NCBI RefSeq assembly: GCF_007830435.1
Contig: NZ_VLLC01000002.1
Span: forward strand, 1 to 64,000
Direction of reading: 5' to 3'
Origin: Desulfobotulus alkaliphilus
GTDB lineage: Bacteria; Desulfobacterota; Desulfobacteria; Desulfobacterales; ASO4-4
Length of the DNA: 64,000 nucleotides
Shown: positions 46,025-51,793 of the stretch, piece after piece
How the letters are laid out: every line of letters starts with the position of its first letter
Numbering within the stretch: the stretch's first letter is position 1
Notes under the pieces: generated by a model
Database searches by the model: none
What the model was told of the DNA's origin: nothing
Seen by the model: only the letters and a program-made list of their open reading frames with translations
Program-made: the position numbers and the translations under genes

Positions 46025-46073
46025 ATACGGAAAGTAACGAAACAAGGCAAAACCCTTGCAAAGGAAAAAACAT

Positions 46074-47126
46074 ATGCTGAGAACCTTTTCCATTAAAAAT
46101 CTGAGTGTTTTTTCAGAAGCAAAACTGCACTTTTCTCCGGGCCTGAATGTCCTTATCGGAGAAAACGGCTGCGGCAAATCCCACCTTCTTAAAACCGCCT
46201 ATGCGGTCATGGCGGCCAGTGCGGAAGAAGGCAGAAAACCGGGTGGAGAAAGCCCTTCCAAGACCACCCTGCAAAAAATCCTTGCCGATAAACTCATCCA
46301 TGTGCTGCGTCCGGAGTCCCTTGGCCGTATCGCCCGAAGAAAACAGGGAAAAGAACGCTGTGAACTTTCCTTCTCCTTTGCGGACAAGGCCCTGGACTGC
46401 GCCTTCCATTTCTCCACATCCAGCCGTTCTGAGGTGCAGCTCACAAAGCTTCCGAAAATCTGGCAGGACAAGGCCCCGGTCTTTCTTCCCACCCGTGAAC
46501 TCATGACCCTTTACCCCAATTTTGTTTCCGTCTATGAGAACCATTATCTGGAGCTGGAGGAAAGCTGGCGGGATACCTGTATTCTCCTTGGAGCCCTTGC
46601 CTTAAAAGGGCCAAGGGAAAAAAAGGTGGCAGAACTCCTTGCCCCCCTTGAAAAAGCCATGGACGGCAAAGTGCTGCTGGATCAGAACGGACGTTTTTAT
46701 CTTCAGCGCACAGGTCAGGGCCGCATCGAAATGAGCCTTGTGGCCGAAGGCCTGCGAAAGCTTGCCATGGTCTCCCGCCTCATCGCCACGGGAACCCTGC
46801 TGGATAAGGGCTGCCTTTTCTGGGACGAACCCGAAGCCAGCCTGAACCCCAGACTGATACGCCTTGTGGCGGAAGTGATGATAAGCCTTGCGGAAAACGG
46901 AATCCAGATTTTTGTGGCCACCCATTCCCTCTTCCTCTTAAAGGAGTTGGAAGTTCTCAGCAGACAGCAAAAGACCCTTTTTCCGCCCCACCGTTACTTT
47001 GCCCTCTCCTTGAAGGATAATGAGGTGACCGTGGAGCAGGGAGAAAGCCTGGATGCCCTCCAGACCCTTGTGCTGCTGGATGAGGAACTGGCCCAGTCCG
47101 ACCGTTTCATGGAAGTGGAGGCATAG
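46074..47126 (+). CDS. AAA ATPase of an ATPase/nuclease-like gene pair
   Basis: A 350-residue SMC/OLD-like ATPase. Walker A is GENGCGKSH (residues 29-37) after the typical FSIKNLSVFSEAKLHFSPGLNVLI start; LVAEGLRKLAMVSRLI is the signature-like region; Walker B is GCLFWDEPEASLNP; the D/H-loop is IFVATHSLFLLKELEVL. The middle part (LIHVLRPESLGRIARR, APVFLPTRELMTLYPNFVSVYE) is distinctive. The start at 46074 follows AAGGA. The next gene starts 1 bp after its stop and encodes a PD-(D/E)XK-like protein, an arrangement resembling phage-defence modules that pair an OLD-like ATPase with a nuclease. No such function is proved for this pair. Confidence 0.88.
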   Translation: MLRTFSIKNLSVFSEAKLHFSPGLNVLIGENGCGKSHLLKTAYAVMAASAEEGRKPGGESPSKTTLQKILADKLIHVLRPESLGRIARRKQGKERCELSFSFADKALDCAFHFSTSSRSEVQLTKLPKIWQDKAPVFLPTRELMTLYPNFVSVYENHYLELEESWRDTCILLGALALKGPREKKVAELLAPLEKAMDGKVLLDQNGRFYLQRTGQGRIEMSLVAEGLRKLAMVSRLIATGTLLDKGCLFWDEPEASLNPRLIRLVAEVMISLAENGIQIFVATHSLFLLKELEVLSRQQKTLFPPHRYFALSLKDNEVTVEQGESLDALQTLVLLDEELAQSDRFMEVEA

Positions 47127-47127
47127 C

Positions 47128-47637
47128 ATGAGAGACTTTAAAGAAGGCAGCCTCACATTCCGTTTCCCTGAGGGCATGAGGGTTTTCAAATACGACGACA
47201 GCACCTTTTACCGCAAACAGTTCCACGCAGCCTTTGGCGGCAACAAGGCCCTTGATTTTATCCTGATGGAAAAAGGCCAGACATGGCTGATGGAGGTCAA
47301 GGATTACCGGGGAAGAACCCGAACCAAAGCCCTGGACCTTGCGGATGAGCTGGCCTTCAAGGTGCGGGATACCCTGGCCGGGCTGACCGTGGCCCAAAAT
47401 ACTGCCAGCAATGGGGAAGAAAAAGAACTTGCCGCCCTTGCCCTTGCTAAAAAAGGTTTCCGCATTGTGCTGCATCTGGAGCAGGCAAAAAATCACTCAA
47501 AGCTTTTTCCCCAGGCCGTTGATCCTGCCAATCTGCTGATAAAAATGAAACAGAAACTAAAAACCATAGATCCCCATCCCCGCATTGTGAATCAAGCCCG
47601 CCTGAAAACAGAGCTACCCTGGGATGCTTTGGACTGA
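47128..47637 (+). CDS. PD-(D/E)XK-like protein, partner of the AAA ATPase
   Basis: A 169-residue soluble protein. Asp43 (KALDFILME) and Glu56-x-Lys58 (WLMEVKDYRGRTRTK) form a D-x12-E-x-K arrangement typical of restriction-endonuclease-fold active sites; Lys/Arg-rich residues follow. The C-terminal half includes FRIVLHLEQAKNHSKLFPQAVDPANLLIKMKQKLKTIDPHPRIV. I recall homologues as uncharacterised proteins that occur next to the same ATPase. The start follows the ATPase stop by one base, so the two are made together. The nuclease role is an inference from motif and context. Confidence 0.75.
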   Translation: MRDFKEGSLTFRFPEGMRVFKYDDSTFYRKQFHAAFGGNKALDFILMEKGQTWLMEVKDYRGRTRTKALDLADELAFKVRDTLAGLTVAQNTASNGEEKELAALALAKKGFRIVLHLEQAKNHSKLFPQAVDPANLLIKMKQKLKTIDPHPRIVNQARLKTELPWDALD

Positions 47638-49153: not shown

Positions 49154-49732
49154 CTATCGCCTGGCCCTCGGCCGCCACCAGTTTGGCTGTGCCCAGACAA
49201 CATCTTTATGCCCATGCATCTCATTGGCTAAATTCAGTGCGGCCAGCCCCGGACCGGAAGCAACAAGGTAGGTATTATCGCCTACGGGAATTGTGCGGAC
49301 AAGGGTCAGTCCCTCGGTGGCAAACCAGTCCTCAGCCTCTATCTGCGGTTTCAGCCGGATGATTACCCCGCCGGGAAGGGCACGAACAGGCCCTCCTTCC
49401 CCGCCATCCCGGAATACGGGGGATAACTTGCGTCCTGTATCAGCACTTTGGACCTGACGCTTTACTGAGCTGTCCTCCCGGACACGCAGAATCTGCACAC
49501 CTCTATATGTAGCCACCACATCGGAACTGTCGCTGGCCAGTGCTGTACGCGCACTGCTGTGCTCATAATTCTCTCCAAAAACAGCCACAATAGCGGGGTC
49601 CAGATATGTAACGCGCTGGCGATTACCATCATGCCAGGTGTAACGGTTTTCATCGGAAGCAATGGCTCCTGTACCGGAAAGGAGGCCAAGGAGACATACG
49701 ATAACACTAAGGCGTCCTGTATATTTGATCAT
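49154..49732 (-). CDS. Stand-alone subtilase propeptide-like secreted protein
   Basis: A 192-residue protein with signal peptide (MIKYTGRLSVIVCLLGLLSG, cut near ASDEN). Its second half, ALPGGVIIRLKPQIEAEDWFATEGLTLVRTIPVGDNTYLVAS and LAALNLANEMHGHKDVVWAQPNWW, is what normally sits directly in front of the catalytic domain of kexin-type bacterial subtilases: the propeptide that chaperones and then inhibits the enzyme. No protease domain follows in this gene; it ends in PRARR. The matching protease, lacking this domain, is encoded 31 bp upstream on the same strand. It likely works in trans as a folding helper and inhibitor. Confidence 0.75.
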   Translation of the reverse strand: MIKYTGRLSVIVCLLGLLSGTGAIASDENRYTWHDGNRQRVTYLDPAIVAVFGENYEHSSARTALASDSSDVVATYRGVQILRVREDSSVKRQVQSADTGRKLSPVFRDGGEGGPVRALPGGVIIRLKPQIEAEDWFATEGLTLVRTIPVGDNTYLVASGPGLAALNLANEMHGHKDVVWAQPNWWRPRARR

Positions 49733-49763
49733 CTCAGATTCCTTTTAAAAATATAGTTGTGGC

Positions 49764-51449
49764 CTAGTAGCCATAGACTTCCAGCCCCCACGGTCCAAGC
49801 ACAACAGGTGTCCCGCCTAGCGAGTTGTCAATACTCAGCGTCCACTCTCCATTGGGATTTTCTCCAAAATGTCGCACGGAACCAAAACGGAATCCCTCCA
49901 GATCTTCATCACCGCAGGGAATTTGATCTCCCTCTTCCGTATCCCAGCAGAAACGCGGCTTTGCCAATGTATTAACTGTACCGAACGGGCCTGTAAGACT
50001 AAGTCCTATATCTCCGATATCTGCACCTTCCTCCACATTGAGTGTCAGATAGATGGCAATAAACTCTGCTTTATTGATGCCGCTTGCATCTACTCTTAAG
50101 TTGCTGACCGCGGATTCACCAGCCGGAATGTTCTTACCTGTCTCCTGAAGATGTTCGCTAATGATCTGGGCAGGAAGCAGCTGCTGGGTTGCCACCGCAG
50201 CACGCACGGCTTTGTCTGCATCCACCGCTCCAAAGCCATAGTTTTCATTAATCCTGTATCCTGCACCGTTTTGTGACCAGTCCGGGCAGGTCGAATCATT
50301 TTGACGGGCAGTCGTAATCAGTATTTTGCGCACATCCCGCCAGGTCAGGCTGGGATTGGCCTCCAGCATCAAAGCAACCACACCGGCCACCGTGGGTGTG
50401 GCCGCACTGGTACCATTGAAGCATCGTGTGTAGCTGCGATTGGCTAACTCATAGCTGGCATTCTCCCCTGCATCGGTATTGTACCCCCGACCCGGGCCGG
50501 TAAGATCCGTTGTGGTGATGGTGAGGCCATCACTCTCCTCATTACAGTACTCCCCTGCAAAACCACTGACCAGCACATTGGATCCCGGCTCTGAGTAGCT
50601 GGCCCGTTTGCCCTGGGCGTTCAATGCGCCAATGGCCATCACCCCGTGAAAGGTAGCCATTTCGTCATAATCGGATCGATCCTCTTCTTCAGCACCATTA
50701 CCAGCCGCCCAGAGATAAATAATCCCCTTGCCGTCCCGGCCATCACGCAGCCCCTCTTCGATCGCCTCTTCCCAAAGACCGGATGCCACATGGAAGTGCC
50801 CGCTATCAGGTGGCCCCCAGCTGTTGTTGGAGATCCAGACAGCTTCTTTGTTCAGGGTCATGGCCAGGGCCTCATCAGAGCCTTCCGCATCAATGGCAAG
50901 AACATTGTATCCCGCCAGCGAAGCATCACCCGCTATACCAGTCACACCAATATGATTGTTATGTCTGGCAGCAATAATACCGGCAACTGCCGTGCCGTGG
51001 GCATCGTCATCTTCGACAGGGGCGGGATCTACCCCAGGTGTATGGGTTACAAAATCGTAGTTGAGGTCCGTGAGGATATTATCTTTGAGATCCTCATGGT
51101 TGATATCCAGACCGTCATCAACGATGGCCACCACCACACCTTTGCCACGACAACCGCCATTGTGCGGACAGTTTTCCCACAGGGGCAGAATATTGAGATC
51201 CTCACCACGCTTGGCCTCATGGCCAGGTCGTCCGCTTTGTCCGGTGTTTTGGAGGTGCCACTGATGGGCAAAGAGGGGATCATTGGGTATGGGGTTTGTG
51301 GGGATGGTAATATCACCACCGTTATCCGGTGGTGTTACCGGATGCGTGCTGGCACTGTCTGAGCTGCTTCCGCTACAGGCGGCCAGAAAAAGCAGCAGGG
51401 CAAAAATCAGTCCATAAAATAAACAAGGGAAACTCCGGAAAATTTTCAC
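49764..51449 (-). CDS. Kexin-like S8 serine protease, lipoprotein, without its own propeptide
   Basis: A 561-residue protease. GTG start at 51449 follows AAGGAGG; the lipobox LAAC gives lipidated Cys25. The catalytic triad is Asp111 (IVDDGLD), His151 (DAHGTAVAG) and Ser348 (NGTSAATPTVAG), with Asn251 as oxyanion residue. Residues 57-70 (NDPLFAHQWHLQN) are the normal first strand of the mature enzyme, directly after a short linker, so no propeptide fits. A C-terminal P/homoB domain (about residues 430-561; SVRHFGENPNGEWTLSIDNSLGG) is complete. The gene immediately downstream encodes the missing propeptide. It probably acts on the cell surface or in the periplasm. Confidence 0.93.
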   Translation of the reverse strand: MKIFRSFPCLFYGLIFALLLFLAACSGSSSDSASTHPVTPPDNGGDITIPTNPIPNDPLFAHQWHLQNTGQSGRPGHEAKRGEDLNILPLWENCPHNGGCRGKGVVVAIVDDGLDINHEDLKDNILTDLNYDFVTHTPGVDPAPVEDDDAHGTAVAGIIAARHNNHIGVTGIAGDASLAGYNVLAIDAEGSDEALAMTLNKEAVWISNNSWGPPDSGHFHVASGLWEEAIEEGLRDGRDGKGIIYLWAAGNGAEEEDRSDYDEMATFHGVMAIGALNAQGKRASYSEPGSNVLVSGFAGEYCNEESDGLTITTTDLTGPGRGYNTDAGENASYELANRSYTRCFNGTSAATPTVAGVVALMLEANPSLTWRDVRKILITTARQNDSTCPDWSQNGAGYRINENYGFGAVDADKAVRAAVATQQLLPAQIISEHLQETGKNIPAGESAVSNLRVDASGINKAEFIAIYLTLNVEEGADIGDIGLSLTGPFGTVNTLAKPRFCWDTEEGDQIPCGDEDLEGFRFGSVRHFGENPNGEWTLSIDNSLGGTPVVLGPWGLEVYGY

Positions 51450-51793
51450 ATAGGCCTCCTTATATTGCAACAATCATTTATTGTTCCAAATGAGCGGGGC
51501 AGAATCAGCATTTCCCTTCCATTTGGCTGATAAACCGGCTGTCGGCTCCATAGGTCAGCCCCGTCAATGGGGGGGCTTTTGCAGCCTGAATGCCCATGGG
51601 CTTGCCTGACTGGTATGGGTATGCCCTTTACCAAACGAAGATGAGAGAAAAAAATACTGTAGAATTTCCTTATTTTTAATTTTGATATTCCAGAAAGTCA
51701 AGCCTTTTAAAACATTTGATATAACAGAAGGAAAACGGCAACAAAAAGGCACTGGTTTTAATGCCCCGAAAAATGAAGAAGCGCATCAGTCCG
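51450..51793. other. Intergenic region between protease and acyl-CoA dehydrogenase
   Basis: Contains the ribosome binding site and presumably the promoter of the protease. A 62-codon minus-strand frame is present but has no family. No terminator is obvious for the flanking genes. Confidence 0.35.

Follow-up and report, generated by a model that had tools for sequence, protein, structure and literature searches.

A kexin-like lipoprotein protease without an in-chain propeptide and an adjoining gene for a probable external propeptide in Desulfobotulus alkaliphilus

In the proteases kexin and furin, enzyme and propeptide are made as a single chain, the propeptide lying at the N-terminus and being cut off. 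The closest described system in which it is instead supplied by a second gene is that of Aeromonas sobria, where the kexin-like protease ASP has an external chaperone, ORF2, encoded just downstream (PMC5638518; 3wqb, 2mk4). According to that source, ASP requires ORF2 to mature, ORF2 places its C-terminal Lys at the catalytic Ser of ASP, and it acts on the enzyme as an inhibitor with an IC50 of 84 nM, an inhibition described as temporary; asp-orf2 operons are named in Aeromonas, Vibrio, Shewanella, Chromobacterium and Pseudoalteromonas. A stand-alone propeptide-like protein is also known from Plasmodium, SUB1-ProM, whose gene lies near subtilase genes and which is a potent inhibitor, being reported as an inhibitor and not as a folding helper (PMC6993865). 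An earlier note on the DNA considered here had taken known kexin-type subtilases to be of one chain, a generalization that does not hold, ASP–ORF2 being an experimentally proven precedent with the same protease-first order (PMC5638518).

Here, we describe a pair of genes in a 64,000-nucleotide stretch of the Desulfobotulus alkaliphilus genome, the whole of which is referred to as the window. That protease and propeptide are encoded separately, with the protease first, had been proposed from the sequence, and both open reading frames are intact. The protease starts with a GTG codon at 51449 and has the following features, where the furin numbering of the pocket acids (D258, D306) is what we take to be the correspondence.

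49764..51449, (-): kexin/furin-like S8 protease, 561 aa, predicted lipoprotein without in-chain propeptide (intact ORF, domain matches)
51455..51461, (-): Shine-Dalgarno AAGGAGG of the protease gene, 5 nt upstream of GTG 51449
51375..51449, (-): lipoprotein signal peptide, lipobox LAAC, Cys25, Ser at +2 (sequence reading)
50229..51146, (-): Peptidase_S8 catalytic domain (Pfam match, PF00082, E 6e-53)
51117-51119, (-): catalytic Asp, in the catalytic domain
50997-50999, (-): catalytic His, in the catalytic domain
50406-50408, (-): catalytic Ser, in the catalytic domain
50805-50807, (-): S1-pocket acid, furin D258 equivalent (alignment)
50664-50666, (-): S1-pocket acid, residue 262, furin D306 equivalent (alignment)
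49779..50021, (-): proprotein-convertase P domain (PF01483, E 2e-7)

All of the catalytic residues (D/H/N/S) are present in the S8 domain, and together with the P domain they place the enzyme among the kexin/furin-like S8 proteases, kexin and furin being its nearest solved relatives. The likeness extends to the furin-type S1 and S2 acids, to the mature start at N56-DPLFAHQWHLQN (pattern NDPLF.QWHL) and to the R-X-R-R with which the putative propeptide ends, even though that propeptide is here separate. What the protease does not have is the in-chain N-terminal propeptide of the kexin/furin type, since the linker of about 31 residues from the lipid cysteine to the mature start NDPLFAHQWHLQN is too short to hold one; the earlier note's statement that no room is left after the lipid anchor thus stands. 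A hidden propeptide in this N-terminus was looked for and none was found: no propeptide model matched, and the best hit, to the 18-residue tail of PF16361, was sub-threshold (E 0.057).

The small gene lies 31 nt downstream of the protease gene, with an ATG start and an AAGGA of its own.

49154..49732, (-): probable external propeptide, 192 aa, secreted (intact ORF, predicted prodomain fold)
49740..49744, (-): Shine-Dalgarno AAGGA preceding the small gene
49658..49732, (-): Sec signal peptide, cleavage probably after AIA25 (sequence reading)
49481..49651, (-): N-terminal beta-rich domain, residues 28-84 (AlphaFold model)
49457..49462, (-): Lys91-Arg92 in a lower-confidence loop, candidate secondary cleavage site (model pLDDT, inferred)
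49178..49381, (-): predicted beta-alpha-beta-beta-alpha-beta propeptide domain, residues 118-185 (model)
49157..49174, (-): C-terminal tail RPRARR, proposed as a product-like inhibitor tail, P6-P1 (alignment end column)

The Lys-Arg pair at 91-92 is present in the same-genus copy (L003) and absent from the spirochaetal homologues, with no conservation beyond the genus. Promoter and terminator scans of the locus gave results near chance level, and a plasmid search returned no match. Elsewhere in the window, at 46056-47637 (+), the gene of a P-loop ATPase (GENGCGKS) and a small gene, part of whose product resembles a nuclease (WLMEVKDYRG), overlap, a pair that could be a defence module.

Family searches with the small protein returned no match in Pfam (up to E 1) or NCBIfam, and sequence searches of the PDB (phmmer, profile A2) found no prodomain. 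Its nature is best seen from single-chain relatives. In one from the same order (G055, L004/L093), a stretch homologous to residues 80-192 of the small protein precedes the catalytic domain; the propeptide part of this chain ends NYAYPNWYRRRTKR and is followed by ALPDDPLFNSQWHL, and a second single chain (G123, L088) reads RGRVKR, then AIPDDTLF. The small protein of the window ends VVWAQPNWWRPRARR, then stop, and when PNWWRPRARR* is aligned with PNWYRRRTKR-ALPDDPLF of L004, the stop falls at the multibasic site. In an unrooted tree, the single-chain relatives group together in one clade, next to the clade of split pairs to which the window belongs.

Two AlphaFold models of the small protein (pLDDT 76 and 82, the latter with a pTM of 0.75) both show a C-terminal beta-alpha-beta-beta-alpha-beta domain. 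The top structural match is the furin-bound PC1/3 prodomain (Z 8.9 and 6.9 for the two models, 71 residues, rmsd 2.1-2.2), with ORF2 (3wqb_B) ranked fourth or second (Z 7.1 and 6.5, 92-93 residues, rmsd 2.7), several subtilisin prosegments below both, and the fungal inhibitor POIA1 (1v5i_B) also among the matches. All of these Z-scores are below 9, which is middling, a Z below 8 being, per the tool, possibly just a common arrangement; RRM-type folds score nearly as high, and for these reasons the fold alone would not settle identity. Foldseek on its own reached a best E of 0.01. Five of 19 aligned family members, the window protein not being one of them, match the Fervidolysin_NPro-like family (PF22148; best 8e-7), which takes its name from a prodomain that is part of a single-chain protease, whereas the window protein is free-standing. 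Taken together, the single-chain homologue, the prodomain fold and the Pfam matches of the five members lead us to identify the small protein as a propeptide homologue, a well-supported reading of sequence and model that agrees with what the earlier note had suggested, including, probably and by analogy, action in trans.

Homology to the N-terminal part of the single-chain protease in L004 is also what would be expected of a remnant of some other broken or frame-shifted protease, an origin raised in the earlier note. We regard this as close to negligible, as the small gene starts independently, with a ribosome site and a signal peptide of its own, there is no second protease fragment beside it, and it occurs as a separate, conserved gene in many genomes of other phyla as well as in a genome of the same genus (G002). 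The latter has both genes, at 86% identity for the protease and 80% for the small protein, and both are under purifying selection in the genus (dN/dS against same-genus copies of 0.16 for the protease and 0.23 for the small gene); in a third genome of the genus, neither was recovered.

How the pair relates to ASP–ORF2 can be judged at several levels. Common to both are a kexin-like S8 protease without a propeptide, a small secreted protein encoded in the adjoining downstream gene, a basic C-terminal residue and, from predicted models that place the PC1/3 prodomain and 3wqb_B in the top four rows, what appears to be the same fold. Profile searches that start from the window family lead to ORF2 homologues: a profile made without sequences from the order of Succinimonas found ORF2 at E 4e-4 and, at 3e-9, further small proteins from that order, and hhalign of the window family against ORF2 gave E 1e-4 with a probability of 53%. 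Common descent with ORF2 is therefore likely, although its support from sequence is weak. The Pfam family ORF_2_N (PF18492) does not match the window protein, while it matches the Aeromonas homologue at 4e-33, and an Aeromonas-type ORF2 in our set (L106) matches 3wqb_B at 7e-77. The small protein is also larger (192 aa, against about 152 aa for ORF2) and ends in RARR where ORF2 ends in KQPK, and the protease is a predicted lipoprotein, whereas ASP is extracellular (PMC5638518). Given the unmatched Pfam family, the predicted lipid anchor and the larger small protein, we treat the window pair as a variant within the ASP–ORF2 type, one that by analogy would work like ASP–ORF2 but stands outside the Pfam ORF2 family.

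The search of other genomes for the same split, which the earlier note had suggested, covered 188 loci, over whose 1,382 ORFs a profile was grown from the small protein alone, blind to position. Nearly every partner that it recovered adjoins a kexin-like protease. The resulting 57 distinct pairs (one false pair, L115, removed; three added by position or weak score) have the small gene downstream in 48 cases and upstream in nine, with a median gap of 9 nt, and span about six phyla: that of the window, Spirochaetota, Campylobacterota, Myxococcota (Anaeromyxobacter), Chloroflexota (Dehalococcoidia) and Gammaproteobacteria, the gammaproteobacterial pairs coming from the order of Succinimonas, also the home of the Aeromonas-type ORF2 in this survey. 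Since the pairing recurs in this way it is not due to chance, and the arrangement of a protease with a separately encoded propeptide is confirmed as real. The abstract of the ASP–ORF2 paper reportedly already calls such operons widely distributed in Gram-negative bacteria, and the breadth seen here therefore extends rather than founds the idea.

The same survey bears on whether the small gene is simply co-expressed with the protease and functionally unrelated to it. Adjacency alone says little, as the next gene upstream on the same strand encodes an unrelated acyl-CoA dehydrogenase; the recurrence of the pairing (57 cases, about six phyla, both orders), the prodomain fold and the frequency of K/R at the C-terminus nevertheless make such a chance neighbour highly improbable.

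Not every related protease has a partner beside it. Seven Spirochaetota proteases with short N-termini (L167, L173, L175, L176, L177, L180 and L183) have no adjacent propeptide-like gene in the flanks covered, a protein of about 255 aa lying upstream instead in L167 and L177, from which it follows that an external propeptide is either not always adjacent or not always needed. Some neighbouring observations concern other architectures. In L098 and L100, from the order of the window but another family, we see a split pair of another, distant type, with a protease of 685-699 aa and a small protein of 216 aa ending HLR. In a spirochaete split pair (L166), the protease is immediately preceded by an ORF of 160 aa whose cysteines follow a Kunitz-type (BPTI-like) pattern, and a Dehalococcoidia genome (G577, contig C1, 1233745-1238223 and 1615303-1619784) encodes several kexin-like proteases in frames of 3202 and 3578 aa, some apparently with two catalytic domains.

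Of particular relevance to mechanism is where the small proteins end. Eighteen of 19 aligned members share a common end column, the sole exception (L164) having HR at the usual column and then 19 residues more, such that it would need trimming to act like the others. Lys or Arg is the last residue in 42 of the 57 small proteins, against 21% of other ORFs from the same loci (p 5e-17, uncorrected for ancestry). A basic C-terminus is found in 33 of 37 pairs with an acidic residue at the furin D306 position and in nine of 20 with a neutral one (p about 0.001, and 0.0003-0.001 over the Fisher tests of this coupling, uncorrected for ancestry and with an S1 alignment that is uncertain in divergent pairs); the tree-corrected independent-pairs test was not significant, having too few contrasts (five pairs, one or two in the same direction and almost none opposed). 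The proposed matching, with K/R opposite an acidic S1 pocket and Y/L/Q opposite a neutral one, is accordingly put forward as a hypothesis. In the window itself, the protease has furin-type S1 and S2 acids and would therefore suit a tail ending R-A-R-R.

Our preferred reading, which we hold with considerable confidence, is that the locus is an operon of a propeptide-less lipoprotein convertase and an external propeptide that would act as both folding helper and C-terminal inhibitor. Folding and inhibition are proposed by analogy with ASP–ORF2; the need for a chaperone, the insertion into S1 and the release are likewise proposals. Both proteins would be exported by the Sec system, and in the periplasm the small protein would bind the nascent catalytic domain and template its folding in trans. 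Its C-terminal R-A-R-R, of furin-type P4-P1 form, would then occupy the S4-S1 sites like a cleavage product that is already cut and hold the protease inactive. Where the earlier note thought of a perhaps lasting inhibitor, the inhibition in ASP is described as temporary. The stop codon of the small gene would in this way stand in for the autoprocessing cut of the single-chain relatives, a cut that becomes unnecessary because the tail is already free, and active protease would be released on displacement or digestion of the small protein, a possible cut being that at Lys91-Arg92 in the loop joining its two domains.

The small protein might instead serve solely as a guard inhibitor, like SUB1-ProM or POIA1, with the protease folding without it. 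Stand-alone propeptide-like inhibitors do exist (PMC6993865), the POIA1 structure is one of the fold matches, and no partner adjoins some of the homologous proteases. SUB1, however, keeps its own propeptide besides SUB1-ProM (PMC6993865), unlike the window protease, which has none, and ORF2 is needed for the maturation of ASP (PMC5638518); we consider a pure guard role unlikely.

A broader proposal can be made, more tentatively and at somewhat less than even expectation: that maturation with an external propeptide is a widespread alternative for kexin-like proteases across several bacterial phyla, with a stop codon replacing the cut and the C-terminal residue matched to the S1 pocket of the partner. 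The pairs offer natural material on how a propeptide may fold a protease without a joining peptide bond. They would extend the logic of the split propeptide to further phyla, to both gene orders and to lipid-anchored proteases, and they offer a simple prediction, that the C-terminal residue of the propeptide should fit the S1 pocket of its protease.
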